Shown one piece after another: positions 3,117 through 29,699 of a DNA stretch of 29,794 bases. Within the stretch, counting starts at the first letter, position 1. Each line of letters opens with the position of its first letter. The notes under the pieces were generated by a model. It worked only from the letters and a program-made list of their open reading frames with translations, made no database searches and was not told the origin of the DNA. This DNA is from Elusimicrobia bacterium HGW-Elusimicrobia-2 (lineage in GTDB: Bacteria > CG03): the NCBI GenBank assembly GCA_002841685.1, contig PHAM01000020.1:1-29794 (forward strand), in the 5' to 3' direction. The translations under genes were made by a program, and so were the position numbers.

Positions 3117-3144
3117 CGGAGCCGGCGCGATGAAGGAGCATTTT

Positions 3145-3579: not shown

Positions 3580-4213
3580 GGTTGAAAACGCCACGAAGGC
3601 AAGAAAGAAATTTCTTCAGCGTATAGACGAAAAAAAAACCTATATTATCTCCAAGGATTCCATAGCGCGCGCCGTACTGATGCCGGTGGAAGCGTATGAA
3701 AAATTCATTGCTGCGGGAAGAACAAAGCTCCCCGCTCTTGCCGTACTGGGAGCCCGGGACTGCGGCAGGAAAAAAGCGCTTGAAACGGCCTCTGCCGTTA
3801 ATTCCGCCGGAAAGTATTTTTCAAAAATAATCTTTGTGTACGGCCCCGAAACAGAAAAATATGCCGGACTTTTTAAAACCGGTGAAACGCGGATCGTTTG
3901 CAATGAAAAACCGCAGATGCCTATAATCACTTCGCTGAAGCTCGCTGTTTCGGCGCTGTCGCCGGGCGATGATTTCCTTGTGTTCTGCTTTCTTTCAAAG
4001 CCCCCTGCCAAACATATGCTGGGGAAGATGTCCCGAAAAACAGCTCTTGCCCGGAAAAACCGCAAAGGCATTGTTATAACAACAGTGAACAAGCGCCCGA
4101 CCCATCCTGTAGCGATGTCAAAAAAATATTTTAAGATGCTCCTGTCTACGAGAAAAGAGCTTGGCATTCCCTACATAATCAGAAAGTTCCAAAAAGACAT
4201 AATTTACTCATAA
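3569..4213 (+). CDS. Phd/YefM antitoxin-like domain fused to a degenerate MobA/MocA-like domain
   Basis: 214-residue two-part protein. Residues about 1-50 resemble the Phd/YefM antitoxin fold: ATKARKKFLQRID, YIISKDSIARAVLMP, EAYEKFI, matching the usual pattern of a helix, 'vvIt..g.pvAvL' and 'eeYerl'. The rest resembles MobA/MocA-type nucleotidyltransferases: LAVLGARDCGRKKAL in place of LAAGxSxRMGxxKAL, then MPIITSLKLAVSAL, and THPVAMSK like the GHPVLF region. The Gly-rich NTP loop is altered, and the metal-binding GDQP is replaced by FLSKP, so catalysis as a guanylyl- or cytidylyltransferase is doubtful. No toxin gene lies beside it. It is the last gene of the Moco operon, overlapping MOSC by 11 nt. 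The start is chosen at 3569, not 3560, for spacing from GGGG (3556-3559). Confidence 0.68.
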   Translation: MFCKVENATKARKKFLQRIDEKKTYIISKDSIARAVLMPVEAYEKFIAAGRTKLPALAVLGARDCGRKKALETASAVNSAGKYFSKIIFVYGPETEKYAGLFKTGETRIVCNEKPQMPIITSLKLAVSALSPGDDFLVFCFLSKPPAKHMLGKMSRKTALARKNRKGIVITTVNKRPTHPVAMSKKYFKMLLSTRKELGIPYIIRKFQKDIIYS

Positions 4214-7277: not shown

Positions 7278-9452
7278 TTACTGCTCTTTTTTAAGGACTC
7301 TGAAAACTTCCTCGGAAGATGTCACGCCGCTGAGGCATTTCTGGAGTCCGTCCTGAAACATGGGTACAAGGGTGCCGTTATCTATTGCGGCCCTCTGTAT
7401 TTCTTCGGGCGTCACCCCTTTTTTAATAACCAGTTTTCGTATTTCCTCATCGGGCATAAGGATCTCGTGCACCCCGATGCGGCCTTTATAACCGGTGTTA
7501 TCGCATTTTTTGCAGCCCGCCTTTCTGAAAAGCGTGATGCCAGGTTCAATTCCAAGACTTTCGGCCAGATCGGCGTCAGCTTTAAATTCTTCTTTGCAGG
7601 CGCATAGCCTTCTGACGAGACGCTGCGCGCAGACGATTATAAGGGAAGAGGACACGAGAAAAGGTTCCACCCCCATATCGAAAAATCTTGTTATGGTTGT
7701 GGAAGCATCATTCGTGTGAAGCGTGGAAAGCATAAGATGACCGGTGAGAGCCGCCTCGATAGCGACCTCCGCTGTTTCAAGATCGCGTATTTCCCCCACC
7801 ATTATGACATCCGGATCCTGCCGGAGAAAGCATTTCAGGGCGTCGGCAAAAGTGACGCCGATGTCTTTTCTGACGGGCATCTGGTTGATCCCCTCGAGCA
7901 TATATTCCACGGGGTCCTCGGCGGTCTGAATATTGATGTCGGGCTTATTGATCTCGGTGATAGCCGCGTAAAGTGTCGTGGTTTTCCCGCTCCCGGTGGG
8001 CCCCACATTCAGTATCATTCCGTATGGCTTGGCTATCGCGGCTCTGTAAAATTGCATGTTCTTGGGCGAAAAACCCATTGCCTCAAGACCGAGCATGGTG
8101 CCGGTTTTATCCAGAATACGCATGCAGACTTTTTCTCCCCAAACAAGCGGCGCGATGCTGACCCTGAGCTCTATATCGGGATTATCCTTTCCGAAATCTT
8201 TGAATTTAATACGCCCGTCCTGAGGCCGGCGGCGTTCGGCTATGTCAAGCGATGACATTATCTTGTATCTTGTGAGCATCGCGCTGTGGGCGCTGCGGGG
8301 AAGTTTGTGCACCTGCTTCATCACGCCGTCCATCCTGAATCTCACCATAGTGTATTTTTCAAAAGCCTCTATGTGTATGTCGCTGACCTTTTTATTATAA
8401 GCTTCCCTGATTATCTGGTTCGCGAGTTTGATGACAGGGGCAGATTCTTCGCTTTCGTAATTTTCATTGTCTATCTCTTCAGTGCTGCTAGTGCTGCTTG
8501 TTTTTATTTCCAGATCCGCCTGCATTTTAGCCGTGGCTTCGTCTTCGTCCGACGCAGGCTCACCGATGCTCTCAAGATAATTTTTTATGGCATAATCTAT
8601 GTCACTCTTGGCGGCAACCACGGTTTCCTTCACTTTGCATTTTGTTATAACTTCAAAATTTTCTATGCCGGTGTAATCCAGCGGATTGGAACACACCACC
8701 CTCAGTTGCCTGCCGGGATATAATTTTATGGGTATCAGCCTGAATTTCCGGAGGTTATCCGACGTTATGCGGGTTTCGTCGAGTATCTCGTTGGCTATGG
8801 TGAAATCTTCGCCGAGCTCTATGTACTGCTGCTTTGTCAGCCGGGCGATGTAATAAGCAAGTTCCTGCGGTGTCATCGTAGCGGCGGGGTTAAAGGCCTT
8901 TTGAATTATTTTGGCCGAATACTGGGCGACTTCCTCCAGCAGATAGGCATCCGATTCGCTGAAATATCCCGGAGCTATGGATTTGTTCAGCACCTGTATG
9001 GCGCCTATGACTTTGCCGTCCGCTTTAAGAGGAGAGGTGATCATCGAGCGGGTCTGAAAACCCGTGTCTTTGTCAATGCCTGCGGCGTGGTCGGCGTCTT
9101 TGGAAACATCCTCAACGACCCGGCTTTTTCCCTCGGATATCACCTTGCCGACGATACCCGTATTGAGAGGCAGTGTGAGTTTCAGCAGAGTCTCCCTTTT
9201 AGCTTCATAAGATTTTTGCACCGCGGGATTGCCTTTATACAGGTTCGGGGAAAAATAAACATGACTGAACTTTATCTTGTCTTTGTCCACAAGATAAAGC
9301 GTTATTGATTCCGCGAAAAGGCTGCTGACTATTTTTTCTATTGTTATTCTGAGGACGGTATTAAGAACCTCCGGAGAGATTTCTTTTTTGAATATTATCT
9401 CCCTCAGCAGCGGGGCGATGATACGGTTTAGTTTATCCTCTATACCGGCCAT
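7278..9452 (-). CDS. gspE: GspE/PilB-type secretion ATPase with N-terminal GAF domain
   Basis: 724 residues. A GAF-like domain (about 20-187) precedes a GspE/MshE N-terminal domain (about 190-295), an acidic Ser/Thr-rich linker (300-337) and the ATPase (about 340-724). Walker A GPTGSGKTT is at 484-492, Walker B VIMVGE at 549-554, and the Asp-box TAEDPVEY at 510-517. The His-box is GHLMLSTLHTND. Four zinc-site cysteines are present (C617, C619, C647, C650). It would power a type IV pilus or type II secretion system at the inner membrane; GspE and PilB cannot be separated here because no partner genes are present. A GAF domain at the N-terminus is unusual and suggests ligand or redox control. 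The ATG has a TATAAT 6 nt upstream and no ribosome binding site. Confidence 0.92.
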   Translation of the reverse strand: MAGIEDKLNRIIAPLLREIIFKKEISPEVLNTVLRITIEKIVSSLFAESITLYLVDKDKIKFSHVYFSPNLYKGNPAVQKSYEAKRETLLKLTLPLNTGIVGKVISEGKSRVVEDVSKDADHAAGIDKDTGFQTRSMITSPLKADGKVIGAIQVLNKSIAPGYFSESDAYLLEEVAQYSAKIIQKAFNPAATMTPQELAYYIARLTKQQYIELGEDFTIANEILDETRITSDNLRKFRLIPIKLYPGRQLRVVCSNPLDYTGIENFEVITKCKVKETVVAAKSDIDYAIKNYLESIGEPASDEDEATAKMQADLEIKTSSTSSTEEIDNENYESEESAPVIKLANQIIREAYNKKVSDIHIEAFEKYTMVRFRMDGVMKQVHKLPRSAHSAMLTRYKIMSSLDIAERRRPQDGRIKFKDFGKDNPDIELRVSIAPLVWGEKVCMRILDKTGTMLGLEAMGFSPKNMQFYRAAIAKPYGMILNVGPTGSGKTTTLYAAITEINKPDINIQTAEDPVEYMLEGINQMPVRKDIGVTFADALKCFLRQDPDVIMVGEIRDLETAEVAIEAALTGHLMLSTLHTNDASTTITRFFDMGVEPFLVSSSLIIVCAQRLVRRLCACKEEFKADADLAESLGIEPGITLFRKAGCKKCDNTGYKGRIGVHEILMPDEEIRKLVIKKGVTPEEIQRAAIDNGTLVPMFQDGLQKCLSGVTSSEEVFRVLKKEQ

Positions 9453-16212: not shown

Positions 16213-17541
16213 TTACATCTTGACGATGCCGTTTTTATCAGCCTTGCCGTAGAAAAATTTAGGAGAAGGAACTTTTTCAGAACCTATGGTGTAAGCGGCG
16301 ACAAAACGTTTTTTTGCGGATTCAAACTTAACCTTATCGCTGTAATGAAATATGGCAAGCGCTTCGCCTTTTTTGACCTCATCCCCCACTTTCTTTTTCA
16401 GATATATACCTACTCCGGGATCCACTATATCATCCTGCTTGGCCCGTCCCGCGCCAAGAGCATTGGCGGCAAGGCCGACTTCAAGAGCGTTGATCTTCTG
16501 CACATATCCGTCACGGTCGCTGGCAACCGCCACTTCCTCTTTTGCCCTGGGAAGCATATCCGTATTATCAATAGAGGCAGGATCTCCTCCCTGGGCCTCT
16601 ACCATTTCTTTTAACTTCTTAAGACCGCTGCCGTCGGCTATGGCTTTTTTCATTCTGGTTTTTCCATCTTCTATGTTCGCGGCGATCCCGGATATGATAA
16701 GCATATTCGCTCCAAGTTCAACGCAGAGGTCTTCAAGGTCTTTTGGGCCGTGGCCATTAAGGGTGGCTATAGCTTCCTTAACTTCTATGGCGTTGCCTAT
16801 TGCGAAGCCCAGAGGTTCTTCCATTGAAGTGACAAGCGCCACCATTCTTCTGCCGGCAAGTTCCCCCACATCAACCATGGCTTTCGCGAGTTTTGCGGCA
16901 TCTTCATATGTTTCCATAAAAGCGCCTGACCCGGTTTTCACATCAAGAACGATACCGTTGGCTCCCGCCGCGAGTTTCTTGCTCATAATACTCCCGACTA
17001 TCAGAGGGATAGAATCCACTGTCGCCGTTCCATCGCGCAATGCATATATTTTCTTATCCGCGGGGGCGAGCTTTGCTGTTTGGCCTATGAGCGCGATATG
17101 TATTTTATTTACGTTCTCAACAAACTTCTCCATTGGCAGACTGCAGGAAAAACCCGGAATAGATTCAAGTTTATCGATAGTGCCGCCGGTGTGGCCCAGG
17201 CCCCGGCCTGTCATTTTCGCAACGATACCGCCGCAGGCCGCGACAAGAGGATTTAACACCAGCGAGGTAGTGTCGCCTACGCCGCCCGTAGAATGCTTAT
17301 CAACCTTAAAACCTTTTATGCCGCTTAAATCCACGCGGTCTCCGGAATCAACCATGCACTCCGTCAGAACCGTTGTTTCTTCAGCTGTCATATCCGAAAA
17401 ATATATCGCCATCAGAAAAGCTGATATCTGATAATCCGGTATATCTCCTTTGACAAACCCTGATATCATAAACTCGATCTCTTCTTTTGAAAGAGCCGCG
17501 CCGTCTCTTTTCTTCTTGATCACTTCATAAACACTGAACAT
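16213..17541 (-). CDS. pdp: Pyrimidine-nucleoside phosphorylase
   Basis: 442 residues. It cleaves uridine, deoxyuridine or thymidine with phosphate, giving the base and (deoxy)ribose-1-phosphate. The glycosyltransferase family 3 signature KHSTGGVGD lies at residues 82-90, with KMTGRGLGHTGGT, LRDGTATVDSIPLI and VKTGSGAFM. The opening FSVYEVIKKKRDGAALS and the length match Bacillus Pdp better than E. coli DeoA. It sits 21 nt after recJ and 24 nt before apgM. Confidence 0.95.
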   Translation of the reverse strand: MFSVYEVIKKKRDGAALSKEEIEFMISGFVKGDIPDYQISAFLMAIYFSDMTAEETTVLTECMVDSGDRVDLSGIKGFKVDKHSTGGVGDTTSLVLNPLVAACGGIVAKMTGRGLGHTGGTIDKLESIPGFSCSLPMEKFVENVNKIHIALIGQTAKLAPADKKIYALRDGTATVDSIPLIVGSIMSKKLAAGANGIVLDVKTGSGAFMETYEDAAKLAKAMVDVGELAGRRMVALVTSMEEPLGFAIGNAIEVKEAIATLNGHGPKDLEDLCVELGANMLIISGIAANIEDGKTRMKKAIADGSGLKKLKEMVEAQGGDPASIDNTDMLPRAKEEVAVASDRDGYVQKINALEVGLAANALGAGRAKQDDIVDPGVGIYLKKKVGDEVKKGEALAIFHYSDKVKFESAKKRFVAAYTIGSEKVPSPKFFYGKADKNGIVKM

Positions 17542-17562: not shown

Positions 17563-19680
17563 CTATTTCTTTTTCCAGCTTTTTAAGAAAAAAATAATTC
17601 TTTTCTTCCGCGTCAGCGCGGTGAAAATAACATCCATAACACCGCAGCCCGGATCCTCACCAGCGATTATATTAAGAAGTTTAGCGTTTTTTTTCAACCT
17701 CAAAAGGAATTTATCCCCTTTTTGCGAGACCGAAACGCAGTTCATCTCCTCAGCGGCGAACAGCGGAAGCGGATTCCCGTTCCCGAAAGGCTCAAGGATT
17801 TCAAGGAAACTTTTTATGTTTTTGCCGAGCCAGTCATCCCACATAATATCAGCTCGCGGAATTTTTTGCGCCGGCATGTCTTCGAAATAAGTCTCGCAGT
17901 CGTCTATGAATTGCCCCAGATCATCTTTTTTTATCCGGATCCCGCATGCGCCCGGATGTCCGCCGTATTCCGCCCCCTTGCCGCATTTTTTGAAAAGCTC
18001 CAGCATATCGCGGCCCGAGCCTCTCGCGGAAGCCGTCCAGTCGAAGGATGAAGAGGTAAAAACAACCGATGGTTTTCCGAATATCTGCGAGATCCTGCTC
18101 GCCGCGGGCCCCCGCAGGCCTGGAGGAAGTTTCTCAGCTTTGACCATTATGACGGGTTTTTTATTTAATCCGTTTTCGCGGATTTGCGTCAGCACCTCCT
18201 CAAAATGCAGTCTCATATCGCGCTGTCTTTTGTCATTTAGTTCTTTGACCCGATTGAATGAAGCGGAAATGTTTTTTTTGGAATCGGCTTGCAGGATTTC
18301 CAGGGCAAGACGCGGTTCGCCCATTCTTTTAGGAGCGTTAAGAAAAGGTATGAGTTTGCGTGACAGCTCCTCCCTGAGATTTTCCCGGGATATGGCGAGT
18401 TTTTTTATAAGCGTTCTCAGAGAATATCGTCTCACGTTCAAAATACCCGCAAGGTGTTTTTTGACCAGCGCGCGGGAAGTTCCTTTTAGGGCGATGTTGT
18501 CGGAAACAGTGCCCAGCGCCGCCAGCGGCAGGTTCTGCTCAACAAACACCTTAAAGGCCGGAGTTCTGAAATGAGACAGGATCGTGTAGAGTTTACGGGC
18601 GGTCTCCGCGTCCGGCAGAGCCCTGTGCGCCTCGGCGTTTATGCCGAAATAGTCTTTGAGATGTTCAAGCTTGTGACTCTGTGACGGCAGGCAGCTCCTT
18701 GACATGGGAAGGGTGTCGATCACATCATTGGCCAGCGCGCAGCCGGTGTATTTGCGAAATTCAGAATCTATGAAAGATGTGTCAAAGGGCGCGTTGTGAA
18801 ATATCAGAGTGTCGTTGCCTATCCATTCCCTGAAGCGGCGCAGCGTCTCCACGCGGCCCGGGGCTCCTTCAAGTTCCAGATTGCTGATACCGGTGAGAAC
18901 GCTTATTTCGGGGCTTATACGGCTTGATGGTTTCAGCAGTGACGAGAAACGGTCTATGACCCTGAATCCGGAGAATCTTACAGCGCCTATTTCTATGATC
19001 TCGTTTTGAGAAGGCGAAAGGCCGCTTGTTTCTATGTCGCAGGCTATTTTGATTTTGTCAAAATCTTTGTCAAGGCTCAGTTTATAGGCGGCGGCGAGGC
19101 AGAAAGCGGCCGCGCAACCGGCTATTTCGGTGTCCGGATGGCTGAGGCAGGAATCTATGACGGCGGAGGCTTCGGCGGGTTCCCCCGAAGGATAGTGATG
19201 ATCCGTTATTATGAACCTGATGCCCCGTTCTTTAAAAGCTTTCGCGGCCTTGTGTTCCGAGATTCCGACATCGGCGCTCACGACAACAGCGGGCTTTGAT
19301 TTCAGGACGGCGTCAATATCCGCCTCACCGATACCGTGCGCCGGACCGCCGCAGACAAAAAGAGATTTCTCCGCCCCGCTTAAAGCGTCGTCAAGGATCA
19401 GAAGTGAGCAGAGCCCGTCCGCGTCCGAATCCCCTATCAGCGCTATCCGCCCGCCTGCCTTGACGGCCTCTTTCAGTATTCCGACGGCTTTGCTCATATC
19501 GGGAAAATTCCCCATGAGTTCAGGGATATTTACTTCAGGCTCAATCCAATCTCTGATTGCGCTTTCGGTTTTCAGGCCCCGCGCGAGAAGAAACTCAAGG
19601 ATATGCCTGTCAGCTTTAACTTTTGACGAAAGATAATCTAGCACTTTTTCATCATCCGGTCGTTTCTCGTTAAAATCCAC
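17563..19680 (-). CDS. recJ: RecJ-like DHH exonuclease with an inserted DnaQ-type exonuclease domain
   Basis: 705 residues. The RecJ scaffold is present: motif I LIGDSDADG (D84, D86, D88), a DHH triad at 160-162 (FIITDHHYPSGE), LAALGTVSDNIAL (about 387-398, motif IV), and the DHHA1 signature GGHPGACGI (573-581), then an OB-like C-terminus. Between AGCAAAFCLAAAYK and motif IV lies a complete DEDDh 3'-5' exonuclease domain (about 211-370; DNA 18571-19050): ACDIETSG (D215, E217), HNAPFD (D300), and HRALPDAE (H352, D357). All five catalytic residues are intact, so this is probably a double nuclease: 5'-3' ssDNA degradation by RecJ plus 3'-5' activity. It is a single continuous frame, not two genes. 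Confidence 0.9.
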   Translation of the reverse strand: MDFNEKRPDDEKVLDYLSSKVKADRHILEFLLARGLKTESAIRDWIEPEVNIPELMGNFPDMSKAVGILKEAVKAGGRIALIGDSDADGLCSLLILDDALSGAEKSLFVCGGPAHGIGEADIDAVLKSKPAVVVSADVGISEHKAAKAFKERGIRFIITDHHYPSGEPAEASAVIDSCLSHPDTEIAGCAAAFCLAAAYKLSLDKDFDKIKIACDIETSGLSPSQNEIIEIGAVRFSGFRVIDRFSSLLKPSSRISPEISVLTGISNLELEGAPGRVETLRRFREWIGNDTLIFHNAPFDTSFIDSEFRKYTGCALANDVIDTLPMSRSCLPSQSHKLEHLKDYFGINAEAHRALPDAETARKLYTILSHFRTPAFKVFVEQNLPLAALGTVSDNIALKGTSRALVKKHLAGILNVRRYSLRTLIKKLAISRENLREELSRKLIPFLNAPKRMGEPRLALEILQADSKKNISASFNRVKELNDKRQRDMRLHFEEVLTQIRENGLNKKPVIMVKAEKLPPGLRGPAASRISQIFGKPSVVFTSSSFDWTASARGSGRDMLELFKKCGKGAEYGGHPGACGIRIKKDDLGQFIDDCETYFEDMPAQKIPRADIMWDDWLGKNIKSFLEILEPFGNGNPLPLFAAEEMNCVSVSQKGDKFLLRLKKNAKLLNIIAGEDPGCGVMDVIFTALTRKKRIIFFLKSWKKK

Positions 19681-19692
19681 GAATTTTTTTAT

Positions 19693-20487
19693 TCAGAATT
19701 TTTTTGAGGAAAGAATACTCTTTATAAGCCGTATGAAATCGCATGAAATCATTTTTCCCGATTCAATGACTTCCTTGTGGGAAAGGGGCTGTCCCGTAAC
19801 GCCGCAGGCGTAGTTGGTCATGCAGGAGATGCCTATCACCGTCATGCCGAGCTTTTTGGCCGTGATCACCTCCGGTACTGTGGACATTCCGACCGCATCG
19901 CCGCCGAGTGTCCGCACCATTCTTATCTCGGCCTTTGTCTCATACGAGGGTCCGGAAAAAGCCAGATAAACACCTTCATTGATTTGGATTTTCAGTTTTT
20001 TCGCTTCGGCTTTCACCATTTTTCTGTACTCCGCGTCATAAGCGTCGCTCAGATCTATGAAATGCGCGCCGCCGATAAGGGGATTATCCCCGATCATGTT
20101 TATATGGTCGCTTATCAGCATAAGAGACGGCACCTTGAAACTTCTATTGACCGCCCCGCCCGCGTTCGTCACAATGAGTTTTTTCACGCCCATTTTGGCC
20201 AGCACCTCTATCATCAGCACAAGCTTCGCCATAGGGTGCCCTTCGTAATAGTGTATCCTTCCGGACATGATGATGACTTTGCGCGAAGCTATTGTACCGG
20301 AGATGAGCTTTCCGGAATGGCCCGGCACTTTGCTCTTGGCGAAACCCGGGATTTTCTCGTAGAAAATTTCTTTTCTGTTTTTTGCTTCGTCCGCAAGCGC
20401 ACCCAGTCCGCTGCCCAGTATCAGGGCTGTTTCAGCGCCGTCAATCTTCTTCTTTATAACATTGTAAGCTTTTTCTGCCGCGTTCAT
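19693..20487 (-). CDS. punA: Purine-nucleoside phosphorylase (trimeric, PunA type)
   Basis: 264 residues. It phosphorolyses inosine or guanosine to base and (deoxy)ribose-1-phosphate. Visible motifs are LILGSGLG, VPGHSGK, GRIHYYEGHPM, VTNAGGAVN, FSGPSYETKAE, GMSTVPE and the Asn-containing SCMTNYACG that, in trimeric PNPs, selects 6-oxopurines. The 20487 ATG overlaps the deoB stop by 4 nt (ATGA), and a longer frame upstream is rejected because it only reads deoB out of frame. Its product is the substrate of DeoB. Confidence 0.95.
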   Translation of the reverse strand: MNAAEKAYNVIKKKIDGAETALILGSGLGALADEAKNRKEIFYEKIPGFAKSKVPGHSGKLISGTIASRKVIIMSGRIHYYEGHPMAKLVLMIEVLAKMGVKKLIVTNAGGAVNRSFKVPSLMLISDHINMIGDNPLIGGAHFIDLSDAYDAEYRKMVKAEAKKLKIQINEGVYLAFSGPSYETKAEIRMVRTLGGDAVGMSTVPEVITAKKLGMTVIGISCMTNYACGVTGQPLSHKEVIESGKMISCDFIRLIKSILSSKKF

Positions 20488-21674
20488 AATATCTCCTTTA
20501 AAAATGATGTTCCCTTTTTGGGGCCTTCCACGCCGAGATATTCCGCCGCCGTGGCCCCTATATCGGCGAAAGTCTCCCGCGTTCCCAGGTCCGCACCGGC
20601 TTTTACCATGCTTCCTGACACTATCAGCGGCACAAATTCTCTCGTGTGATCTGTGTGCGCGATGTATGTCGGATCGCACCCGTGGTCCGCGGTGAGGATA
20701 AGCATATCGTTTTTCAGCATGGATTTTCTTATCTCCGGCAGAGCCGTGTCAAATTCCTTTAAGGCGTCGTAATAACCCTGAGTATTTCTTCTGTGGCCGA
20801 ACAGTGAATCAAAATCCACCAGATTCACAAACAAAAGCTCTTTTTTTTCAGGAACCCTTTTTATATCTTCTATCGTCTGTTTTATTCCCGCGCCGTTAAG
20901 GCCGGTGTGCTGTTCTTCGGTCAGTCCCCTGTGGGCGAAAATATCTCCTATTTTTCCGACACCCACGACATTTACTCCTGCCGCTTTAGCGAGATCCATA
21001 AGCGTGATTGACACCGGCTCTATGGCGTAATCCTTGCGGTTAGTTGTCCGCGCGAAACTGCCGACTTCGCCGGTGAAGGGCCTGGCTATGACGCGCGCTA
21101 TGGCGTGAGGCCCCGTCAGTATTTCTCTGGTTTTTTCACAGACACTGTAAAGTCTGTCCAGGCCGAAATATTTTTCGTGGGCCGCTATCTGAAAAACGCT
21201 GTCGGCGGAAGTGTAAACAATTGGGAATCCCGTCTTTACGTGATCTTCTCCGAGTTCTTCCAGTATAACCGTGCCGGAGGAGGCTTTGTTGCCGAGGATG
21301 CCGTCAACCCCCGCGGCTTTTTTGAAGGTGTTCAGCAAGTCTTCGGGAAAACCGTTAGGGTAAGTTGGGAAGGGGCGTTTGGCGGGACTTCCCATTATTT
21401 CCCAGTGCCCGGCCGTCGTGTCCTTGCTGGCGGATACTTCCGCCATTCTTCCATAGGCCCCCTGAGCATCAGGCGCTTCTTTGCCGGGGTGAAGATTTTT
21501 TATCCTTCCCAGCCCCAGTTTTTCCAGATTGGGCAGATCCAGGCCTTTGAATTTTTCAACAATATGCCCCAGTGTGTCGGACCCTTTATCGCCGTATTCA
21601 GCGGCGTCCGGCATCTCGCCCACGCCCACGCTGTCAAGAACGATAACGATAACTCTCTTTGCGCCTTCAGTCAT
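20484..21674 (-). CDS. deoB: Phosphopentomutase
   Basis: 396 residues of the alkaline phosphatase superfamily. It interconverts (deoxy)ribose-1-phosphate and -5-phosphate. The family signature VLDSVGVGEMPDAAEYGD is near the N-terminus, the phosphorylated-Thr region is SASKDTTAGHWEIMG, and metal ligands are in VDFDSLFGHRR and LTADHGCDPTY. AGGAGG precedes the ATG. It is the first gene of the long minus-strand block and feeds pentoses from PunA and Pdp into the pentose phosphate pathway. I could not fix its promoter with confidence. Confidence 0.96.
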   Translation of the reverse strand: MTEGAKRVIVIVLDSVGVGEMPDAAEYGDKGSDTLGHIVEKFKGLDLPNLEKLGLGRIKNLHPGKEAPDAQGAYGRMAEVSASKDTTAGHWEIMGSPAKRPFPTYPNGFPEDLLNTFKKAAGVDGILGNKASSGTVILEELGEDHVKTGFPIVYTSADSVFQIAAHEKYFGLDRLYSVCEKTREILTGPHAIARVIARPFTGEVGSFARTTNRKDYAIEPVSITLMDLAKAAGVNVVGVGKIGDIFAHRGLTEEQHTGLNGAGIKQTIEDIKRVPEKKELLFVNLVDFDSLFGHRRNTQGYYDALKEFDTALPEIRKSMLKNDMLILTADHGCDPTYIAHTDHTREFVPLIVSGSMVKAGADLGTRETFADIGATAAEYLGVEGPKKGTSFLKEIL

Positions 21675-21841: not shown

Positions 21842-23551
21842 TCAGACAAAAAGTTTCACAAATTTATTCTGCGTCACATCCACCAGCCCCTTATCGGTGA
21901 TCTTCAGATCCGGTATGACCGGCAGAGCCAGAAAAGAAAGCACCATAAAAGGGTCATCAAGTTTACAGCCCATCGCGGCAGATGCCTTATGCAGATGTTT
22001 CAATTGTTTGTAAACAAAGGAAAGATCCCTGTCGCTCATAAGGCCGGCTATCGGCAGGGGAAGAATTTCCTGCCTGTCGGATTGGAAACAGCCCAACCCT
22101 CCACCGGATTTTATAATGGCCAGCACCGCCTGATAAATGCTCTCATCGTCGCAGCCGACGCAGATTATATTGTGGGAATCATGCCCCACCGAGGATGCCA
22201 GCGCCCCTTTTTTAAGGCCGAAGCCTTTTACAAAGCCCTGCGAGATATTGCCTGTCCTCTTGTGGCGTTCAACAACGACAATTTTAAGGATGTCATTTTT
22301 TGTGTCGGACACGGCAAAGCCATTTTCCGTCTTTACGGGCATCACCCGTTTTTTTGTTATAAGTTCATCGGGGACGAGCTCAATCACATTGACTTTTTTA
22401 GATGCCGCCGGGAGTTTGAAATGCGCGGGCATTATCCATTTTACGTTTATGCTGCTGCGAAGAGGCACGGGCTTTGGTTTTCTGCTTTTGAGGGCCTTTC
22501 CGTTACGGGCGACTTCTTCCCCGCGCTTGTAAACATTCAGAACCCTGAATTTGGACAGATTGTCCACAATGATAAAATCGGCGAAATAGCCGGGCGCGAC
22601 AGCCCCCGCGTTGCGCAGGCTGAAATGCCTGGCGGGGTTTATTGTGGCCATTCTTATGGCGGAGACGGGATCAACCCCTAAAGATATGGCTTTCCTTATC
22701 GTGTAGTCCAGGTGGCCTTTTTCCACAAGATCTATGGGATTGCGGTCATCGCTGACAAGGCAGAAGCGGCTCTGGTTTTTATCGTTGACTAGGACGGCGA
22801 GCGTCTTGAGATTCTTTGCCACAGAGCCTTCCCTTATCATAATGGTCATCCCCGCCGAAAGTTTTTCAAGGGCCTCTTCTTTCCCGAAGGATTCGTGATC
22901 GCTGTGTACGCCGCTTGTTATGTATGCGTAAAGATCTTTACCCATGAGACCGGGCGCGTGCCCTTCTATAGCTTTGCCGAAAGCTATTTTCAGTTTGTCA
23001 AAAATCTCCCTGTCGTTCTCAAGGACGCCGGGCACATTCATCACTTCGCCGAGTCCGACGACCCATTTTTGTGAGAAATAAGGCATGAGATCGACCGCCG
23101 AAAGCCTCGCCCCGGAAGTTTCCATATCGGTGGCCGGCACAGTTGAGGGCAGGGTAAAATATATGTCCACAGGCTGGTATTTCGCCGATTGCAGCATATA
23201 GGTAATGCCTTCCAGCCCCAGAACATTCGCTATTTCATGAGGATCGCATATAACGGTTGTCGTGCCGTAAGGCAGCACCGCTTTTACGAATTCGCCCATT
23301 TCCAGCATTGAGCTTTCCGTGTGTATGTGCCCCTCCACAAGGCCGGGCACGATATAGCGGTTTTTTATGTCAACAGTTTTTTTTGCTTTATAATTTCCGA
23401 ATCCCACAACAACGCCTTTGTGCACGGCGACCCCGGTTTTCTCTATCTTGCCGGAAAACACATTAACGAGCCGCGCGTTCTTGAAAAAAACATCCACAGG
23501 GATTTTGCCCCTTGCCGCTTTCACGAGTTCGTATTTATTGATAAAATTCAT
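21842..23551 (-). CDS. ade: Adenine deaminase
   Basis: 569 residues of the amidohydrolase superfamily. It converts adenine to hypoxanthine and ammonia. The metal-binding VEGHIHTESSML motif, CDPHEIANVLG, GHAPGL, SDDRNPIDLV, and the C-terminal GLKKGALASSVGHDSHNI with VGCDD are all characteristic of Ade. The 23551 ATG matches the family N-terminus; an upstream in-frame ATG is rejected because it would lie at the -10 box. It is separated from deoB by 167 nt holding a repeat, so it is probably its own unit. Confidence 0.95.
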   Translation of the reverse strand: MNFINKYELVKAARGKIPVDVFFKNARLVNVFSGKIEKTGVAVHKGVVVGFGNYKAKKTVDIKNRYIVPGLVEGHIHTESSMLEMGEFVKAVLPYGTTTVICDPHEIANVLGLEGITYMLQSAKYQPVDIYFTLPSTVPATDMETSGARLSAVDLMPYFSQKWVVGLGEVMNVPGVLENDREIFDKLKIAFGKAIEGHAPGLMGKDLYAYITSGVHSDHESFGKEEALEKLSAGMTIMIREGSVAKNLKTLAVLVNDKNQSRFCLVSDDRNPIDLVEKGHLDYTIRKAISLGVDPVSAIRMATINPARHFSLRNAGAVAPGYFADFIIVDNLSKFRVLNVYKRGEEVARNGKALKSRKPKPVPLRSSINVKWIMPAHFKLPAASKKVNVIELVPDELITKKRVMPVKTENGFAVSDTKNDILKIVVVERHKRTGNISQGFVKGFGLKKGALASSVGHDSHNIICVGCDDESIYQAVLAIIKSGGGLGCFQSDRQEILPLPIAGLMSDRDLSFVYKQLKHLHKASAAMGCKLDDPFMVLSFLALPVIPDLKITDKGLVDVTQNKFVKLFV

Positions 23552-23562
23552 AATGTAGAGGT

Positions 23563-23591
23563 ATTTTAACAACAAACCCGTTAAAAATCAA
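23563..23591 (-). promoter_or_regulatory. Promoter of ade
   Basis: On the minus strand, TTGATT (23586-23591), a 17-nt spacer and TAAAAT (23563-23568) form a good sigma-70-type promoter. The ATG lies 11 nt beyond the -10 box, leaving a leader of only about 5 nt and no Shine-Dalgarno site. Confidence 0.6.
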
Positions 23592-23778: not shown

Positions 23779-23871
23779 TGGCGGAGAGGGAGAGATTTGA
23801 ACTCTCGCGGGCCCTTACGGACCCCTACAGGTTTAGCAAACCCGCCCCTTCAGCCGCTTGGGTACCTCTCC
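23779..23871 (-). tRNA. tRNA-Ser (anticodon GCT), CCA encoded
   Basis: The minus strand gives acceptor GGAGAGG/CCTCTCC, discriminator G and an encoded CCA (23779-23781). The anticodon GCT (23835-23837) sits in loop TTGCTAA, followed by a long class II variable arm and T-loop GAGTTCAAATCTC. It reads AGC and AGT codons. Confidence 0.94.
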
Positions 23872-24186: not shown

Positions 24187-24270
24187 CGGAGGCGGGAGGA
24201 TTCGAACCCCCGAGGCTCATCACCTAACGGTTTTCAAGACCGCCGCCATCAACCACTCGGCCACGCCTCC
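24187..24270 (-). tRNA. tRNA-Ser (anticodon TGA)
   Basis: The minus strand folds with acceptor GGAGGCG/CGCCTCC, discriminator G and anticodon TGA (24234-24236) in loop CTTGAAA. It also has D-arm GCCGAGTGGTTGATGGC, a long variable arm and T-arm GGGGTTCGAATCCTC. CCA is not encoded, unlike the neighbouring tRNA-Ser(GCT). Confidence 0.95.
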
Positions 24271-24380: not shown

Positions 24381-25655
24381 ATGATTAAAAGATGGGAAAT
24401 TAAATCCAGCCCCGCTCCGCGCTTTCCGGACAGAAAGCTTTTGCTCATGTCGTCGAAAGGTAAAGATGACGCGGAAAAGCTTAAGAAAAGTTTCGCCGGA
24501 TACATGGGCGTTGTGGTCAGCAGTGATAGTGCCGATTTTCAATGGGCGGCGTATCTTTACGGCGCTTCGGCCAATATAGAAAAACTCATTAGTCAGGAGC
24601 TGACGGAATTATCCCTTGAAAGCTCCGTAAAGACAGTGAAAAAGAGCGAAACTTTGCCGCCTAAAAAAGAGGGGGATATAGCCCCCGGGGTTGAGACAAA
24701 ACCGGTGCCGCCGGACGAAAAGCTCTCCGAAAAGAAAGCTCCGCCTGAAAAGAAGATGGAATTTCCCAAAAGAGCGCCTAAGCCGGCGGAAAAAACTCCT
24801 GACGCTTCCGCCGCCAAGGCAGAAAAGTCCGACGAGCCGGCTAAAAAAGAGGAGAAAACAGAAAAGCCCTCAAAGCCCGAAGGCGCGGTAGCGGAAACGG
24901 CGCAGATGCCGGTGATTGAAGCGCCTGCACAAGAATCCGCGGGCCCGGTGATAGAACAGTTTGAGAAACCCTCTGCCCCGCCCAAGGCTGTTCCCGGCGT
25001 TGCGGATCTGCTGGAGACTTTTGACAAACCCGAGCCGGCGAAAGCTGAAAAAGCCGAAGGCGCGACCGCGCCTAAGACGGCGGACTTGAAAGCCGCGCCG
25101 GAGATAGAAAAATTTGAACAGTTCACACCCGACCAGAGCGCGACAAAGCCCCTGACGGGTCCCCTGATAGAAACTTTTGCTGAAAAAACCGCCGAGCCAA
25201 AGACAGCCGCCGCCTCGGAAGCTTCAAAAGAGGAGGCCGCTGCCCCGCCGGTTAAAGAGACTGAGCCCGAGAAAACGGAGCCGCCGCCCGTGAGAAAAGA
25301 CGCCAAGGCCATAGATGTGCTTTATCTTTGTCCTGAGAAAGCTAAGGATAAAGCGGATATCGTAAAAGAGAATATAGCGAAAATAGTCGCGGAAAAGAAT
25401 ATAAATTTTGATTTCAAGCCGGCGGGTGTTGTCGTGTATTCTCCCGGCGCCAACAAAGAGAGCATAATGGAAGAGATCGCTAAATATAAATTCAGCTTTG
25501 TTCTCGTCGTGGCCCCTGATGCCCTGGGCGAAGAGCTCCTCAGGGAGATAAAGAAAAAGGGTTTTGTTCCCAAAGTGATAACTGATGACAATATTGACAA
25601 AAAATTCAGGTATCTTAATCTAATTACGGATATTGTTTTATCGCCCCGGAGGTAA
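24381..25655 (+). CDS. Scaffold-like protein sharing terminal domains with the adjacent DnaA-like protein
   Basis: 424 residues, not a family I can name. A globular N-terminal domain (about 1-85, MIKRWEIKSSP...DFQWAAYLYGAS) and a C-terminal alpha/beta domain (about 309-424, IDVLYLCP...FSFVLVVAP...FRYLNLITDI) bracket a long Pro/Ala/Glu/Lys-rich, presumably disordered linker (88-308). Both ends align with the ends of the next protein. The linker holds four copies of a short motif: VIEQFEK (190), LLETFDK (210), EIEKFEQF (241) and LIETFAEK (262), and one repeat-derived TAPKTADLKAAP (229-240). There is no signal peptide or membrane segment. The C-terminal strand-helix pattern recalls Rossmann- or TIR-like folds, but that is only a guess. 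The next gene starts immediately after the stop. Confidence 0.8.
   Translation: MIKRWEIKSSPAPRFPDRKLLLMSSKGKDDAEKLKKSFAGYMGVVVSSDSADFQWAAYLYGASANIEKLISQELTELSLESSVKTVKKSETLPPKKEGDIAPGVETKPVPPDEKLSEKKAPPEKKMEFPKRAPKPAEKTPDASAAKAEKSDEPAKKEEKTEKPSKPEGAVAETAQMPVIEAPAQESAGPVIEQFEKPSAPPKAVPGVADLLETFDKPEPAKAEKAEGATAPKTADLKAAPEIEKFEQFTPDQSATKPLTGPLIETFAEKTAEPKTAAASEASKEEAAAPPVKETEPEKTEPPPVRKDAKAIDVLYLCPEKAKDKADIVKENIAKIVAEKNINFDFKPAGVVVYSPGANKESIMEEIAKYKFSFVLVVAPDALGEELLREIKKKGFVPKVITDDNIDKKFRYLNLITDIVLSPRR
25067..25099. repeat. In-frame repeat copy (scaffold-like gene)
   Basis: CGCGCCTAAGACGGCGG (25067-25083) followed by ACTTGAAAGCCGCGCC. It encodes APKTADLKAAP within the disordered linker. It is the cleanest short copy and is used here as the reference. 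A weaker related stretch, GCGCCTAAGCCGGCGGA, lies at 24774-24790. Confidence 0.65.
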
Positions 25656-27893
25656 ATGATAAAAGGCTACAAGCTTGTTTATAGCCCGACGTCAGACAAG
25701 CGTTTCCGCTACAAAGTCAAACTAAGCGCTGATGAAGCCTCCTGTCTGGGGGTAATAAAAGAAATAGGCCCTATCTGCGGCCGCCCTTTTAAAAATATTG
25801 GTTCCGATTTTGAGAAAGCTTTTTATGTCTATGGCTCATCGGACGAAGTAAAAGCGCAAATAATTTCCGCGCTGGAGACTCGCTCCTCGGACGCGCCAAT
25901 GCCCGGCGGTGCCACGCCGGACTTGAAAGCCCGCCTCAAGCGGACTTCGCAAGGCTCAGCCGCGCCTAAGACGGCGGAAGCAGACGCCGCGCCCGAGACT
26001 GTTGTTCCCCCGGCTTCGCAGGCAACCCCGATGCCTAAGGCCGAGGGCGTTTCTGTATCCGGGTTTCCGCGACCGCCTGAGCCGGAAGTGAGCCCTGATG
26101 TGACGAAGGCTGTTATCGGGGCTCAGAATGAGGCCGGGGCTTTCGATGTCCCGCCGCTTAATGGCAAATACAGATTTGATAATTTATACGAAGGCAGTTT
26201 TAATCGTTTTCTGAAACAGGCCTGTGAAGATATAGCCAAAGAGTTTTCGCCGTCTTACAACCCGCTGTTTATATGGGGCGGCGTGGGCAGAGGTAAAACC
26301 CATCTGATCCAGGCGCTCGGCAATTTCATTAAAAAGCATCATGAGAGCAAGACGGTTTTTTATGTACAGGCGCAGGATCTGATAACGATGATACATGAAG
26401 CTTTGGTTTCTCCCGCCAAAAAGATCCTGCTCCTTAAGAAATTAGGTTCAGCCGACGCGCTGCTTATAGACGATATACAGTTTCTTGAAGGCGAGGAGAT
26501 ACAGAGCGTTTTTTTTCTGATTTTTGAAAGGGCTTATCAGCAGGATCATCAAATCGTCTTCACCTCAGACAGGAGACCAAAGCAGCTTGCAGGTTTCGCC
26601 GACCGTCTGCGCTCAAGATTTGAATGGGGGCTTGTGAACAAACTGCAGAAACCTGATTTCAACTCGCGCAGGGAAATCCTCAAAATGAAAATTTCCACGG
26701 AATTCACCTCTCTTAAGCTGACCGATGAGATGCTGGATTACATAGCCGACAAATTCAAGGACAACATAAGAGAGCTTGAGGGCGTGCTGAAAAAATTGAA
26801 TATTTATCACAAATTGCAGGGCGAAGAAGTCACCATGGAGAGCCTGAAAAATATTGTGGCTGAGCTATTATTGGGCGAGGAGAAGCCCGAGGCCGCATCG
26901 TCCGCCACGGCACCTGCGGCGAAAGACGCCGTTCCCGGGCCGGCCGCGCCTAGGACGGCGGATTTGAAAGCTGCGCCTCCTGCCGGTAATCTCCCTGTAC
27001 CCGGGGCGCCGGCTGCCGGTCAGACTAAAGACAGCGTGCCGCCCGCGAAGGATGAGAAGCTTCCGCCGCCGGATGACTTTCCCCCGCCCCCTCCTGAGGC
27101 CCAGTGCCCCAACTGCGGAGCGGAACTGTCAAACATAGAGATGTATGACAGATGGTACTGTTACAGCTGCGGGCGTTACGCCCCTCCGGATTTCGGAAAG
27201 GGCAAACACGGTCTTTCATCAATGACCCATAAAAAAGATAAAAAAGTCGATCTGGAAAAGCTTGCCGCCCTGGAAGAACTCCGTAAGTTAGCCTCGCCGC
27301 AGAACACCGAGCCCATCCCGGTTATAGGAGAGAAAGATTATGAGTCCGCCGAAGCCGCGCCTAAGACTGCGGATTCGAAAGTCGTGCCTGTATCTAAGCC
27401 GGGGGAGCCGCGCGCGCCGGAAACGAAAGAGAGTTCAGTCGCGCCGATCAAGTTCACAAGAGAAATACAGTGCGCTCTTTTCTATCCGCTCAGGGGGGAT
27501 AACGCCATTAAGACGGTGACTGAGTATGTAAGGACGACGGTGACCAAGCACCGGCTTCACATAAAGTTTGATTTCATAGTGCAGCAGGAATATAAAATCC
27601 CGCAGATCAATTTCAGTTCGTTTTTAAATGTTCTGCACACGGCAAAGGTGAAGGTGGCCATTGTTGTGGGCCCGCCGGGCAACTCCGGCGTCAATGAGGA
27701 TGAGTTTTATGAGAAACTCAACGGGATGTTCGCTGATGAGGGCCTCTGTTTTGAATACATAGCCTACAAGGATATCAGGCAGAGCTATGAATACCTGAAT
27801 ATTGTGCTTGATATAGCTAATTTTGGTAAGCAGCGGCTGGGATATAAAATGATCAAGGAGGAATTCCATGGCGGTGATAGCAAGAAAAGATAA
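25656..27893 (+). CDS. DnaA-like AAA+ ATPase with zinc ribbon and novel terminal domains, lacking DnaA domain IV
   Basis: 745 residues. The N-terminal domain (about 1-82, MIKGYKLVYSP...DFEKAFYVYGSS) is followed by a linker, then a DnaA-type AAA+ domain (about 171-408): Walker A GGVGRGKTH (208-216), Walker B LLIDDIQF (269-276), sensor I VFTSDRRP, arginine-finger region RLRSRFEWGL (317-326) and sensor II NIRELEG (370-376). A Pro-rich linker leads to a zinc ribbon (C484, C487, C502, C505) and a C-terminal alpha/beta domain (about 600-725). The DnaA-box-binding domain IV is absent, so this is not a standard replication initiator. Hda-like or a new switch ATPase are options. The linkers carry three repeat-derived segments. 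The start directly follows the preceding stop, and a receiver gene overlaps the 3' end by 26 nt. Confidence 0.88.
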   Translation: MIKGYKLVYSPTSDKRFRYKVKLSADEASCLGVIKEIGPICGRPFKNIGSDFEKAFYVYGSSDEVKAQIISALETRSSDAPMPGGATPDLKARLKRTSQGSAAPKTAEADAAPETVVPPASQATPMPKAEGVSVSGFPRPPEPEVSPDVTKAVIGAQNEAGAFDVPPLNGKYRFDNLYEGSFNRFLKQACEDIAKEFSPSYNPLFIWGGVGRGKTHLIQALGNFIKKHHESKTVFYVQAQDLITMIHEALVSPAKKILLLKKLGSADALLIDDIQFLEGEEIQSVFFLIFERAYQQDHQIVFTSDRRPKQLAGFADRLRSRFEWGLVNKLQKPDFNSRREILKMKISTEFTSLKLTDEMLDYIADKFKDNIRELEGVLKKLNIYHKLQGEEVTMESLKNIVAELLLGEEKPEAASSATAPAAKDAVPGPAAPRTADLKAAPPAGNLPVPGAPAAGQTKDSVPPAKDEKLPPPDDFPPPPPEAQCPNCGAELSNIEMYDRWYCYSCGRYAPPDFGKGKHGLSSMTHKKDKKVDLEKLAALEELRKLASPQNTEPIPVIGEKDYESAEAAPKTADSKVVPVSKPGEPRAPETKESSVAPIKFTREIQCALFYPLRGDNAIKTVTEYVRTTVTKHRLHIKFDFIVQQEYKIPQINFSSFLNVLHTAKVKVAIVVGPPGNSGVNEDEFYEKLNGMFADEGLCFEYIAYKDIRQSYEYLNIVLDIANFGKQRLGYKMIKEEFHGGDSKKR
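25921..25992. repeat. Long in-frame repeat copy (DnaA-like gene, first linker)
   Basis: ACTTGAAAGCCCGCC (25921) through CTTCGCAAGGCTCAG matches intergenic 21740-21785 almost base for base. It runs straight into CGCGCCTAAGACGGCGG (25961-25977). It encodes PDLKARLKRTSQGSAAPKTA, which differs strongly in character from the surrounding linker. Confidence 0.75.
26945..26977. repeat. In-frame repeat copy (DnaA-like gene, second linker)
   Basis: One-mismatch copy of CGCGCCTAAGACGGCGG followed by ATTTGAAAGCTGCGCC. It encodes APRTADLKAAP just after the AAA+ domain. Confidence 0.6.
27356..27388. repeat. In-frame repeat copy (DnaA-like gene, third linker)
   Basis: One-mismatch copy of CGCGCCTAAGACGGCGG followed by the more diverged ATTCGAAAGTCGTGCC. 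It encodes APKTADSKVVP between the zinc ribbon and the C-terminal domain. Confidence 0.55.
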
Positions 27894-28347
27894 ACCCCCG
27901 CTGGTGCTTATAATCGACAGCGACAAGGAGGTTGTGAAGCTGCTGAGAGTATATCTCACCGATGAGGGTTTTAGGACATCGGAGGCCTATGACGGTATAA
28001 GGGGTGTCCTCCATGCCCTCAACGACAATCCCGATCTGATCATCACGGAGCTGAATCTTGGACGGCTCTCCGGTTACGAGCTCATAAAAAGATTGCAAAC
28101 GGTTTCCCGCCGTACCGCACAGATGCCGGTGCTGATTCTTTCGGCCAAAGCCCTTTCTTCTCAGGAGCAGGTAAGTCTTGTCGAACTGGAGCCGAATGTT
28201 GTTGAGTTTGTGCCCAAGCCCGTAACGCACGGAGCCTTTATGGTTAAAGTTCATAAGATACTTGGTACGGGAATGAGCGAAAAAGAAGTTCTTGAAAAAC
28301 TGGAGAGGCCCAGACATCTCAGCTCGGGGGAAAAGAGCATAGGCTGA
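27868..28347 (+). CDS. Receiver-domain protein with Glu at the phosphoacceptor position
   Basis: 159 residues with a CheY-like receiver fold (about 10-133) and a short charged tail with no output domain. The acidic pair (D17, D19 in LIIDSDKE), S92 (LILSAK) and K117 (VPKP) are kept, but the phosphoacceptor position in PDLIITELNLG is Glu (E61), not Asp. Glu can mimic phospho-Asp in some receivers, so this may be locked in an active-like state and act as a fixed protein-protein module. A strong AAGGAGG (27855-27861) precedes the ATG, which lies inside the end of the DnaA-like gene (26-nt overlap). Confidence 0.88.
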   Translation: MAVIARKDKPPLVLIIDSDKEVVKLLRVYLTDEGFRTSEAYDGIRGVLHALNDNPDLIITELNLGRLSGYELIKRLQTVSRRTAQMPVLILSAKALSSQEQVSLVELEPNVVEFVPKPVTHGAFMVKVHKILGTGMSEKEVLEKLERPRHLSSGEKSIG

Positions 28348-28441: not shown

Positions 28442-28867
28442 ATGGCTAAGATTCTAGTGGTTGACGACGACAGCAAAATTCAGATGGTGATACGCATCAT
28501 GCTGCAGAAAAAAGGTTACGATGTCAGGTGCGCGTCATCCGGCATTGAGGCTTTTCAGGAAATTCCCGAATACAGGCCGGATCTTATCCTGCTGGATGTC
28601 ATGATGCCCGGCATGGACGGCTATGAAGTGTGCCGGAAACTCAAATCTTCGGAAAGCACAAAAAATCTTCCAGTAATAATGCTCACGGCGCTTGGCATGG
28701 GTGAGGATTTTGAGAAAGCCATTGAAAACGGGGCCGACTGGTATATAGTGAAGCCTTTTAACTCAAGGCAGCTTCTTTCAAGAGTGTCAATGCTTCTGGA
28801 TGGAGAGAAACCGGCCGAAGAAAAAACCGGAGAAGAAAAAACGGGGGAGGAAGGTAATGGAAATTAG
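28442..28867 (+). CDS. Single-domain response regulator (CheY-like)
   Basis: 141 residues. A canonical receiver: ILVVDDDSK (D8, D9), phosphoacceptor D52 in LLDVMMPGMDG, T82 (LTAL), K104 (IVKPF). No DNA-binding output domain; the receiver is followed by an acidic tail with repeated EEKTG units (about 122-141). No histidine kinase is nearby, so the partner is unknown. AGGAG lies 6 nt before the ATG. Its last codons contain the ribosome binding site of the transketolase gene, with which it overlaps by 11 nt. Confidence 0.94.
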   Translation: MAKILVVDDDSKIQMVIRIMLQKKGYDVRCASSGIEAFQEIPEYRPDLILLDVMMPGMDGYEVCRKLKSSESTKNLPVIMLTALGMGEDFEKAIENGADWYIVKPFNSRQLLSRVSMLLDGEKPAEEKTGEEKTGEEGNGN

Positions 28868-29699
28868 GCAATTGGAAAAAAAGGCATGGCTTATAAGGAA
28901 GGACATAATAAAGATGATCTCCGCTGCTGGCAGCGGCCATCCCGGAGGTTCACTTTCGGCCGCCGATCTTATGACGGTCCTTTATTTTGACGAGATGAAC
29001 ATAGATCCCGCGAAACCCGATAAAAAAGACCGGGATTATTTTGTCCTTTCAAAAGGACATGTGTGCCCCGCTCTTTACGCGGCGCTGGCGCACAGGGGAT
29101 ATTTTGATACGAAAGAACTTATCACTTTGAGAAAACTCGGTTCGCGCCTTCAGGGGCATCCCGGCGTGAATAAAGGCCTTCCGGGCCTTGAGGCCTCCAC
29201 GGGTTCTCTCGGACAGGGGCTGTCCGTTGCCGGAGGCATGGCGCTGGCTTTCAAGCTTGATGGAAAACCCAACAGGGCTTATTGTATACTGGGCGACGGG
29301 GAGCTCGACGAAGGAAGCGTCTGGGAAGCGGCGATGTCGTCGGCACATTATAAGTTAAGCAATCTTTGCGCCATGGTTGACAACAACGGCCTTCAGATAG
29401 ACGGGGCGGTGGAAGATGTGATGAACATCAACCCTATCCCCGAAAAATGGAAAGCTTTCGGCTGGAATGTTATAGAGATAGACGGCCATTCCGTGAAGGA
29501 AATTAAAGAAGCTTTCGCGAAAGCCAGAGAATGTAAGGACGCGCCGAGCGTGATAATAGCCAAAACCGTCAAGGGCAAAGGCGTGTCTTTCATGGAAAAT
29601 ATCGCCGGATGGCATGGCGTTGCGCCGAACCCGGAGCAGGAAAAAGCGGCACTTGCGGAACTGGACGAGAAAGAAAAATTGTGGGAGAAAATAAAATGA
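28857..29699 (+). CDS. Transketolase, N-terminal subunit
   Basis: 280 residues, the thiamine-diphosphate-binding half of a split transketolase (non-oxidative pentose phosphate pathway). Signatures are AGSGHPGGSLSAADLMTVLYF, VLSKGHVCPALYAAL, LQGHPGV, STGSLGQGLSVAGGMALAF, and the ThDP/Mg motif GDGE (146-149) ending in DNN (175-177). The family normally has a separate C-terminal subunit gene next to it. Here the stop is followed immediately by a probable group II intron end, so that gene should lie beyond the window. The start at 28857 follows GGAGGAAGG and matches the family; an in-frame ATG 19 codons upstream only reads the receiver gene's tail in another frame. Confidence 0.95.
   Translation: MEIRQLEKKAWLIRKDIIKMISAAGSGHPGGSLSAADLMTVLYFDEMNIDPAKPDKKDRDYFVLSKGHVCPALYAALAHRGYFDTKELITLRKLGSRLQGHPGVNKGLPGLEASTGSLGQGLSVAGGMALAFKLDGKPNRAYCILGDGELDEGSVWEAAMSSAHYKLSNLCAMVDNNGLQIDGAVEDVMNINPIPEKWKAFGWNVIEIDGHSVKEIKEAFAKARECKDAPSVIIAKTVKGKGVSFMENIAGWHGVAPNPEQEKAALAELDEKEKLWEKIK

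Follow-up and report, generated by a model that had tools for sequence, protein, structure and literature searches.

A DnaA-like ATPase with predicted loss of its DNA contacts in a conserved locus of two-component receivers and nucleoside catabolism genes

DnaA is considered to initiate replication in all bacteria, and to our knowledge those of its relatives that lack the DNA-binding domain IV (Hda) still serve replication. Here we ask what a DnaA-type ATPase of much greater length, missing that domain and placed among receivers and catabolic genes, may be doing in the genome of Elusimicrobia bacterium HGW-Elusimicrobia-2. The gene, called here DnaAL (DnaA-like ATPase), lies in a stretch of 29,794 nucleotides (assembly GCA_002841685.1, contig PHAM01000020.1, positions 1 to 29,794 of the forward strand) that was analysed as a whole and that we refer to as the window.

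The DnaAL open reading frame begins with an ATG preceded by GGAGG, and its start codon adjoins the stop codon of the partner gene (ending at 25655, with DnaAL starting at 25656); partner, DnaAL, the receivers RR1 and RR2 and the transketolase N-terminal subunit follow one another in this order on the plus strand (Table 1). The Pfam model Bac_DnaA matched residues 168-327 (E = 6e-45), and IstB barely exceeded its own cut-off over the same P-loop region. The NCBIfam model for DnaA, TIGR00362, matched residues 149-409 with its positions 99-343 of 437 at 260.9 bits, below the DnaA cut-off of 343.9 bits, and the positions of this model corresponding to domains I and IV were unmatched in DnaAL. Identity to DnaA proteins was about 35-46% across about 240 amino acids of AAA+ domain III, where the catalytic residues were all found: K214 and T215 of Walker A, D272 and D273 of Walker B, D305 of sensor I, the arginine finger R321 and R372 of sensor II. 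A first-pass annotation of this DNA had described an intact DnaA-type AAA+ core in a protein deprived of the C-terminal DnaA-box-binding domain, and both statements held: the TIGR00362 match ends at position 343, and a standard domain IV signature was looked for and not found, the DHSTV/DHTTV motif of this domain being absent in 25 of 25 DnaAL orthologs. A genome search for a separate full-length dnaA recovered an ordinary gene of 445 amino acids on another contig (G000:C87) of the assembly (1.78 Mb, 96% complete), which rules out DnaAL as the only DnaA of this genome. A separate ordinary dnaA was also present in all 12 genomes checked in the other phyla carrying DnaAL.

Table 1. Position of the DnaAL gene, its domains and its neighbours in the window.
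Feature	Coordinates	Strand	Remarks
Pyrimidine nucleoside phosphorylase	16213..17541	-	
Exonuclease (RNase_T) + DHH domain protein	17563..19680	-	705 aa; beside nucleoside phosphorylases
Purine nucleoside phosphorylase family	19693..20679	-	
Phosphopentomutase-like metalloenzyme (DeoB)	20484..21674	-	
Adenine deaminase	21842..23575	-	divergent; same conserved neighbourhood in other families
Partner	24381..25655	+	424 aa; N-domain and C-domain joined by linker, without AAA+ core
DnaAL (DnaA-like ATPase)	25656..27893	+	745 aa; N-domain, AAA+ core, Pro/Ala-rich linkers, zinc ribbon, C-domain
N-domain	25656..25895	+	residues 1-80; common to DnaAL and partner; predicted b-b-a-b-b-a
DnaA-type AAA+ core	26148..26885	+	about residues 165-410; Walker A 26274-26303; K222-equivalent deleted
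Zinc ribbon	27105..27170	+	CPNCGAELSNIEMYDRWYCYSC; residues 484-505; CxxC...CxxC; cysteines 484, 487, 502, 505
C-domain	27453..27860	+	residues 600-735; predicted b-a-b-a-b-a-b-a; common to DnaAL and partner
RR1, pseudo-receiver	27868..28347	+	Glu at phospho-acceptor position; first 26 nt overlap the end of DnaAL
RR2, canonical single-domain receiver	28442..28867	+	Asp pocket and conserved Lys
Transketolase N-terminal subunit	28854..29699	+	downstream, same operon; window and contig end here

Which parts of the DnaA engine have been kept was examined in an alignment of 25 DnaAL proteins from four phyla and 42 DnaA-type proteins. The Lys and Thr of Walker A, the two Asp of Walker B, the Asp of sensor I, the box VII Arg, the Arg finger and sensor II were invariant in the 25 DnaAL and in the DnaA set. 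In the DnaA of B. subtilis, K222 and I190 are essential in the motif binding single-stranded DNA (PMC6669920); the K222 position (B. subtilis numbering) was occupied by Lys in 42/42 DnaA and 0/25 DnaAL, all 25 of the latter having Ser, Ala or a deletion there. An unbiased scan pointed to the same residue: it found 54 positions with an invariance of 93% or more in DnaA, and just two of these, K222 and D277, had been lost by at least 70% of the DnaAL proteins. Because domain IV is missing and K222 is lost in 25/25, the prediction that DnaAL is DNA-blind is strongly supported by the alignments, and the loss of K222, being almost the sole change among invariant positions, makes of it a clean testable prediction. 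Eight residues of the DnaA filament interface have been named essential (PMC6669920). F218, R264, L269 and G317 were kept in 25/25 DnaAL and R321 was R or K in 25/25; R202, R206 and H231, three of the eight, were replaced in the class to which the window belongs, and a DnaA-like filament is therefore less secure there. The simplest reading of these sequences sees in DnaAL an ancient paralog of DnaA that would have kept ATP-driven assembly and lost DNA. The repurposed DnaA-type switch proposed in the first-pass annotation, in place of a role in initiation, is as a prediction well supported by the separate dnaA, the retained ATPase residues and the loss of domain IV and K222.

DnaAL was found in 16/16 genomes of the phylum of the window using a profile of its C-terminal half, G005 having only a 91-aa piece of it at the edge of a contig, and when 61 genomes were searched at the protein level, orthologs with lengths of about 650-800 aa appeared across this phylum. 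Most of the relatives that bear a name are 'Elusimicrobia bacterium' MAGs. When 386 genomes were searched with the C-domain, seven from outside the phylum had matches; every one of these has the AAA+ core, and the N-domain was present in those outside proteins that are N-terminally complete; in three other small phyla DnaAL occurred in 5/6, 5/5 and 3/3 genomes. In the tree of the AAA+ core a single branch splits DnaAL from all genuine DnaA (support 98/96). Other DnaA-like genes were met in these surveys: in G389 the gene lies in two frames (L112:1105-2778), a frameshift or an assembly error; the phylum of G130 has a third DnaA-type protein (L145, L146, L147; 499-501 aa), with K222 kept and without the DHSTV/DHTTV motif; and in two unrelated genomes, open frames 2145 aa (G027:C1:2399969) and 1754 aa (G039:C145:67930) long contain DnaA-like AAA+ matches.

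Outside the core, the first-pass annotation had proposed a domain-sharing partner and protein ends matching no family familiar to it. The partner was borne out by profile-profile comparison (hhalign), in which it matched DnaAL over the N-domain (99.6% probability, E = 8.5e-24) and over the C-domain (99.4% probability, E = 1.2e-21). No significant match was found in a Pfam scan of all N-domain and C-domain members. Structure comparison of the N-domain model (pLDDT 70, moderate) gave no clear known relative. A BMC-type fold was considered for this domain and rejected: EutL, CsoS1D and permuted BMC-H were listed, but at Z values no higher than 7.2 and mixed with many unrelated folds.

The model of the C-domain resembles the MID domain of Argonaute. 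The AlphaFold2 model (pLDDT 83), which has the order of elements given in Table 1, was compared with solved structures, and the best 50 VIA matches were all Argonaute/PIWI proteins (Z 12.3-14.9, 116-142 residues aligned). Foldseek gave the MID of MIWI a target-normalised TM-score of up to 0.75 (E = 3.6e-4) and listed lumazine synthase at equal or similar E with a lower TM-score. The tetrad by which the Argonaute MID holds the 5'-phosphate is Y-K-Q-K (PMC6299218); it was not conserved in the C-domain alignment, Q occurring in some orthologs only. An hhalign comparison with a small MID profile of five sequences was not significant (P = 0.019 over 40 columns), the PDB profile search with the C-domain returned no Argonaute match, and a Piwi domain was matched neither in the DnaAL protein nor in the genome of the window (G000). 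We therefore describe the C-domain as having a MID-like predicted fold and claim neither membership of the family nor guide binding. Two further assignments were tried and rejected: a TIR domain, suggested by weak TLR2 profile matches (E 0.02-0.06 over 59 columns) and absent from the structure lists, and a receiver, which gave no match.

The CxxC...CxxC ribbon reported at first pass is present, with the four cysteines given in Table 1, but the idea that it replaces domain IV does not hold in general. DnaAL proteins carry 0, 1 or 2 copies (absent in 8/25, doubled in 8/25, present in 17/25): one copy in the class of the window and one other group, two in the second part of the phylum, and none in three family-level groups; being optional, the ribbon is ruled out as a defining replacement. 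Several DnaAL-like ribbons also occur in a 716-aa frame of another genome (G045:C73:22301-24139) with no AAA+ match.

The surroundings of DnaAL bear on the processes in which it may take part. The minus-strand nucleoside enzymes of the window (Table 1) are followed farther along that strand by a phosphoglycerate-mutase-type protein, GAPDH and PGK. Two tRNA genes (23782-23871 and 24187-24270, minus strand) lie in the gap between the divergently transcribed genes, 5' of the partner, and an Rfam search of the window for a riboswitch returned these two tRNAs only. The window also holds a molybdenum cofactor biosynthesis cluster (182-4213, plus strand; MoCF-type, MoaA-like, MoaC and MobA-like genes) and a GspE/PilB-type ATPase with an N-terminal GAF domain (7278-9452, minus strand). 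A PilT-type gene is found just upstream in clusters of two other phyla, and DNA uptake by pili supplying the nucleoside pathway is a possible link.

Examination of related genomes, proposed at first pass for the four-gene neighbourhood, showed the DnaAL locus to be conserved in the phylum and in three further phyla, with transketolase no more than 5 genes downstream of DnaAL in 21/23 loci with enough sequence; G082 and G389 have no transketolase neighbour. In the rest of the window's phylum, shell genes, RpiB, DeoC and an FTCD_C-like gene lie 5' of DnaAL, and a GAF histidine kinase, a receiver, transketolase, adenine deaminase and DeoB lie 3' of it. The three other phyla present the order, or subsets of it, TIM, RpiB, (PduL or DeoC), PilT, (glycine cleavage genes), DnaAL, followed by (kinase, receiver), transketolase N and C, DeoB, PNP and PyNP. 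Two layouts of transketolase were met (28854-29699, L091, L085): separate N and C subunits in the class of the window and the other phyla, and a single fused protein in the phylum's second part. The cell-cycle, polarity or stress signalling initially envisaged is not what this context indicates, which is catabolism of nucleosides, deoxyribose and pentose phosphates together with two-component signalling.

Several of these enzymes belong to the sugar phosphate utilising (SPU) type of microcompartment locus, which is already known and thought to serve the breakdown of DNA and nucleosides (Axen 2014, PMC4207490; Sutter 2021, PMC8217296); a text search of the main texts of these two papers found no mention of a DnaA-like ATPase. 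The genome of the window has SPU-type genes on other contigs, among them G000:C52 and C74; these genes are TIM, PduL, shell proteins, an aldehyde dehydrogenase, a PduS-like protein, RpiB and DeoC, and shell-domain or SPU-type genes were present in 15/16 genomes of its phylum (L033-L046, L071). G013 has no shell gene, yet it keeps DnaAL and the enzymes, a combination that connects DnaAL with the pathway and not with the shell, and no shell gene was seen in the DnaAL loci examined from the other three phyla. A function of DnaAL in microcompartments only is weakened by both observations.

Both receivers of the cluster were confirmed, with the addition that in RR1 (55-93% identity across the phylum) Glu stands for the phosphorylated Asp in 6/6 orthologs, and RR1 would accordingly be predicted from its sequence to be an always-on or structural receiver. 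In RR2 the residues D9, D52 and K104 were invariant in 11/11 homologs from several phyla, and a single-domain receiver lies 3' of DnaAL everywhere but in one phylum (the G130 group). The histidine kinase of DnaAL loci carries GAF domains, and a small ligand or redox cue is therefore plausible for it.

Taking these results together, we tentatively favour, at somewhat less than even chances, the view that DnaAL is a phosphorelay-linked, ATP-driven oligomeric switch for nucleoside and deoxyribose catabolism, its oligomerisation, receiver binding, ligand and target being inferred. DnaAL would keep the DnaA-type core for ATP-dependent assembly, no longer engage DNA, and work with the shorter partner, which has no ATPase, and with single-domain two-component receivers. 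A kinase with GAF sensor domains would phosphorylate RR2, and the phospho-receiver, a small ligand of the C-domain (a nucleotide, a pentose phosphate or a related metabolite), or both, would set the ATP-bound oligomeric state. The N- and C-domains displayed on the oligomer, together with the partner, might then recruit or control the enzymes of nucleoside, deoxyribose and pentose-phosphate metabolism or their expression. A bolder version, in which an ATP-gated and DNA-blind oligomer of a DnaA paralog, with an Argonaute-MID-like ligand domain and under receiver control, senses the nucleotide or pentose-phosphate state and turns on DNA and nucleoside catabolism in several uncultured phyla, is in our opinion doubtful. 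Conserved gene order can also reflect causes other than direct function.

A rival explanation is that DnaAL acts on replication like Hda, co-assembling with DnaA as a subunit unable to hold DNA and either capping its filament or promoting ATP hydrolysis, and so tying initiation to the supply of nucleotides or pentoses. The complete AAA+ core with its Arg finger, the several interface residues kept and the loss of DNA contacts are what would be expected of such a poison or regulatory subunit, and Hda is likewise devoid of domain IV (TIGR03420 matches DnaAL at 93.4 bits). However, three interface residues have diverged in the class of the window, a simple motif scan found no sliding-clamp binding motif near the N-terminus of any ortholog, and the DnaAL loci examined lie with catabolic genes and not near dnaA, dnaN or other replication genes. 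We consider this role unlikely.

AAA+ activases and ParA-like ATPases serve carboxysomes, and by analogy DnaAL might be an ATPase that scaffolds, positions or remodels the catabolic enzymes or the sugar-phosphate microcompartment. In the phylum's second part the gene is located directly 3' of shell and DeoC genes, and 15/16 genomes of the phylum have shell-domain genes, both of which agree with this possibility; the shell-less G013, which keeps DnaAL with the enzymes, and the absence of shell genes from the examined loci of the other three phyla speak against it, and we regard it as slightly less probable than the Hda-like role. Least probable of all, in our estimation, is a nucleic-acid regulator in which the zinc ribbons or the MID-like C-domain would have taken over contacts with DNA or RNA from the AAA+ core, for transcriptional or RNA-level control of the operon. 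Ribbons in 17/25 orthologs, the resemblance of the C-domain to the domain of Argonaute that binds the 5' end of the guide, and the fact that none of the closest genes was noticed to encode another DNA-binding output protein are consistent with it, but the ribbons are absent from three family-level groups and the 5'-phosphate tetrad of MID is not conserved. Should the phosphorelay-linked switch be correct, it would mean that the engine of DnaA can be separated from DNA and put to new use as a switch, and the sugar-phosphate microcompartment pathway would gain a component of regulatory or mechanical nature.

The literature searched contained no description of the DnaAL architecture. Parts of it have counterparts in known systems. 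SPU microcompartment loci share with the genome or phylum of the window DeoC, RpiB, TIM, PduL, aldehyde dehydrogenase, PduS-like and shell genes, whereas DnaAL is found also in genomes and loci with no shell gene detected. The MID domain of Argonaute/PIWI proteins resembles the C-domain in predicted fold, and is its best match among solved structures; DnaAL differs in having no PIWI domain, no conserved 5'-phosphate tetrad and no significant match to the prokaryotic MID profile. Hda/HdaA (TIGR03420), the regulatory inactivator of DnaA, is likewise a DnaA-type AAA+ protein without domain IV, but DnaAL is much larger, scores far below the cut-off of that family (93.4 against 194.8 bits) and is closer to DnaA than to Hda. 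With the DnaA initiator itself DnaAL shares AAA+ domain III and all the ATPase residues, and it is set apart from it by the lack of domains I and IV, the loss of K222, the additional N- and C-domains, the optional ribbons, a separate clade and a different genomic context.
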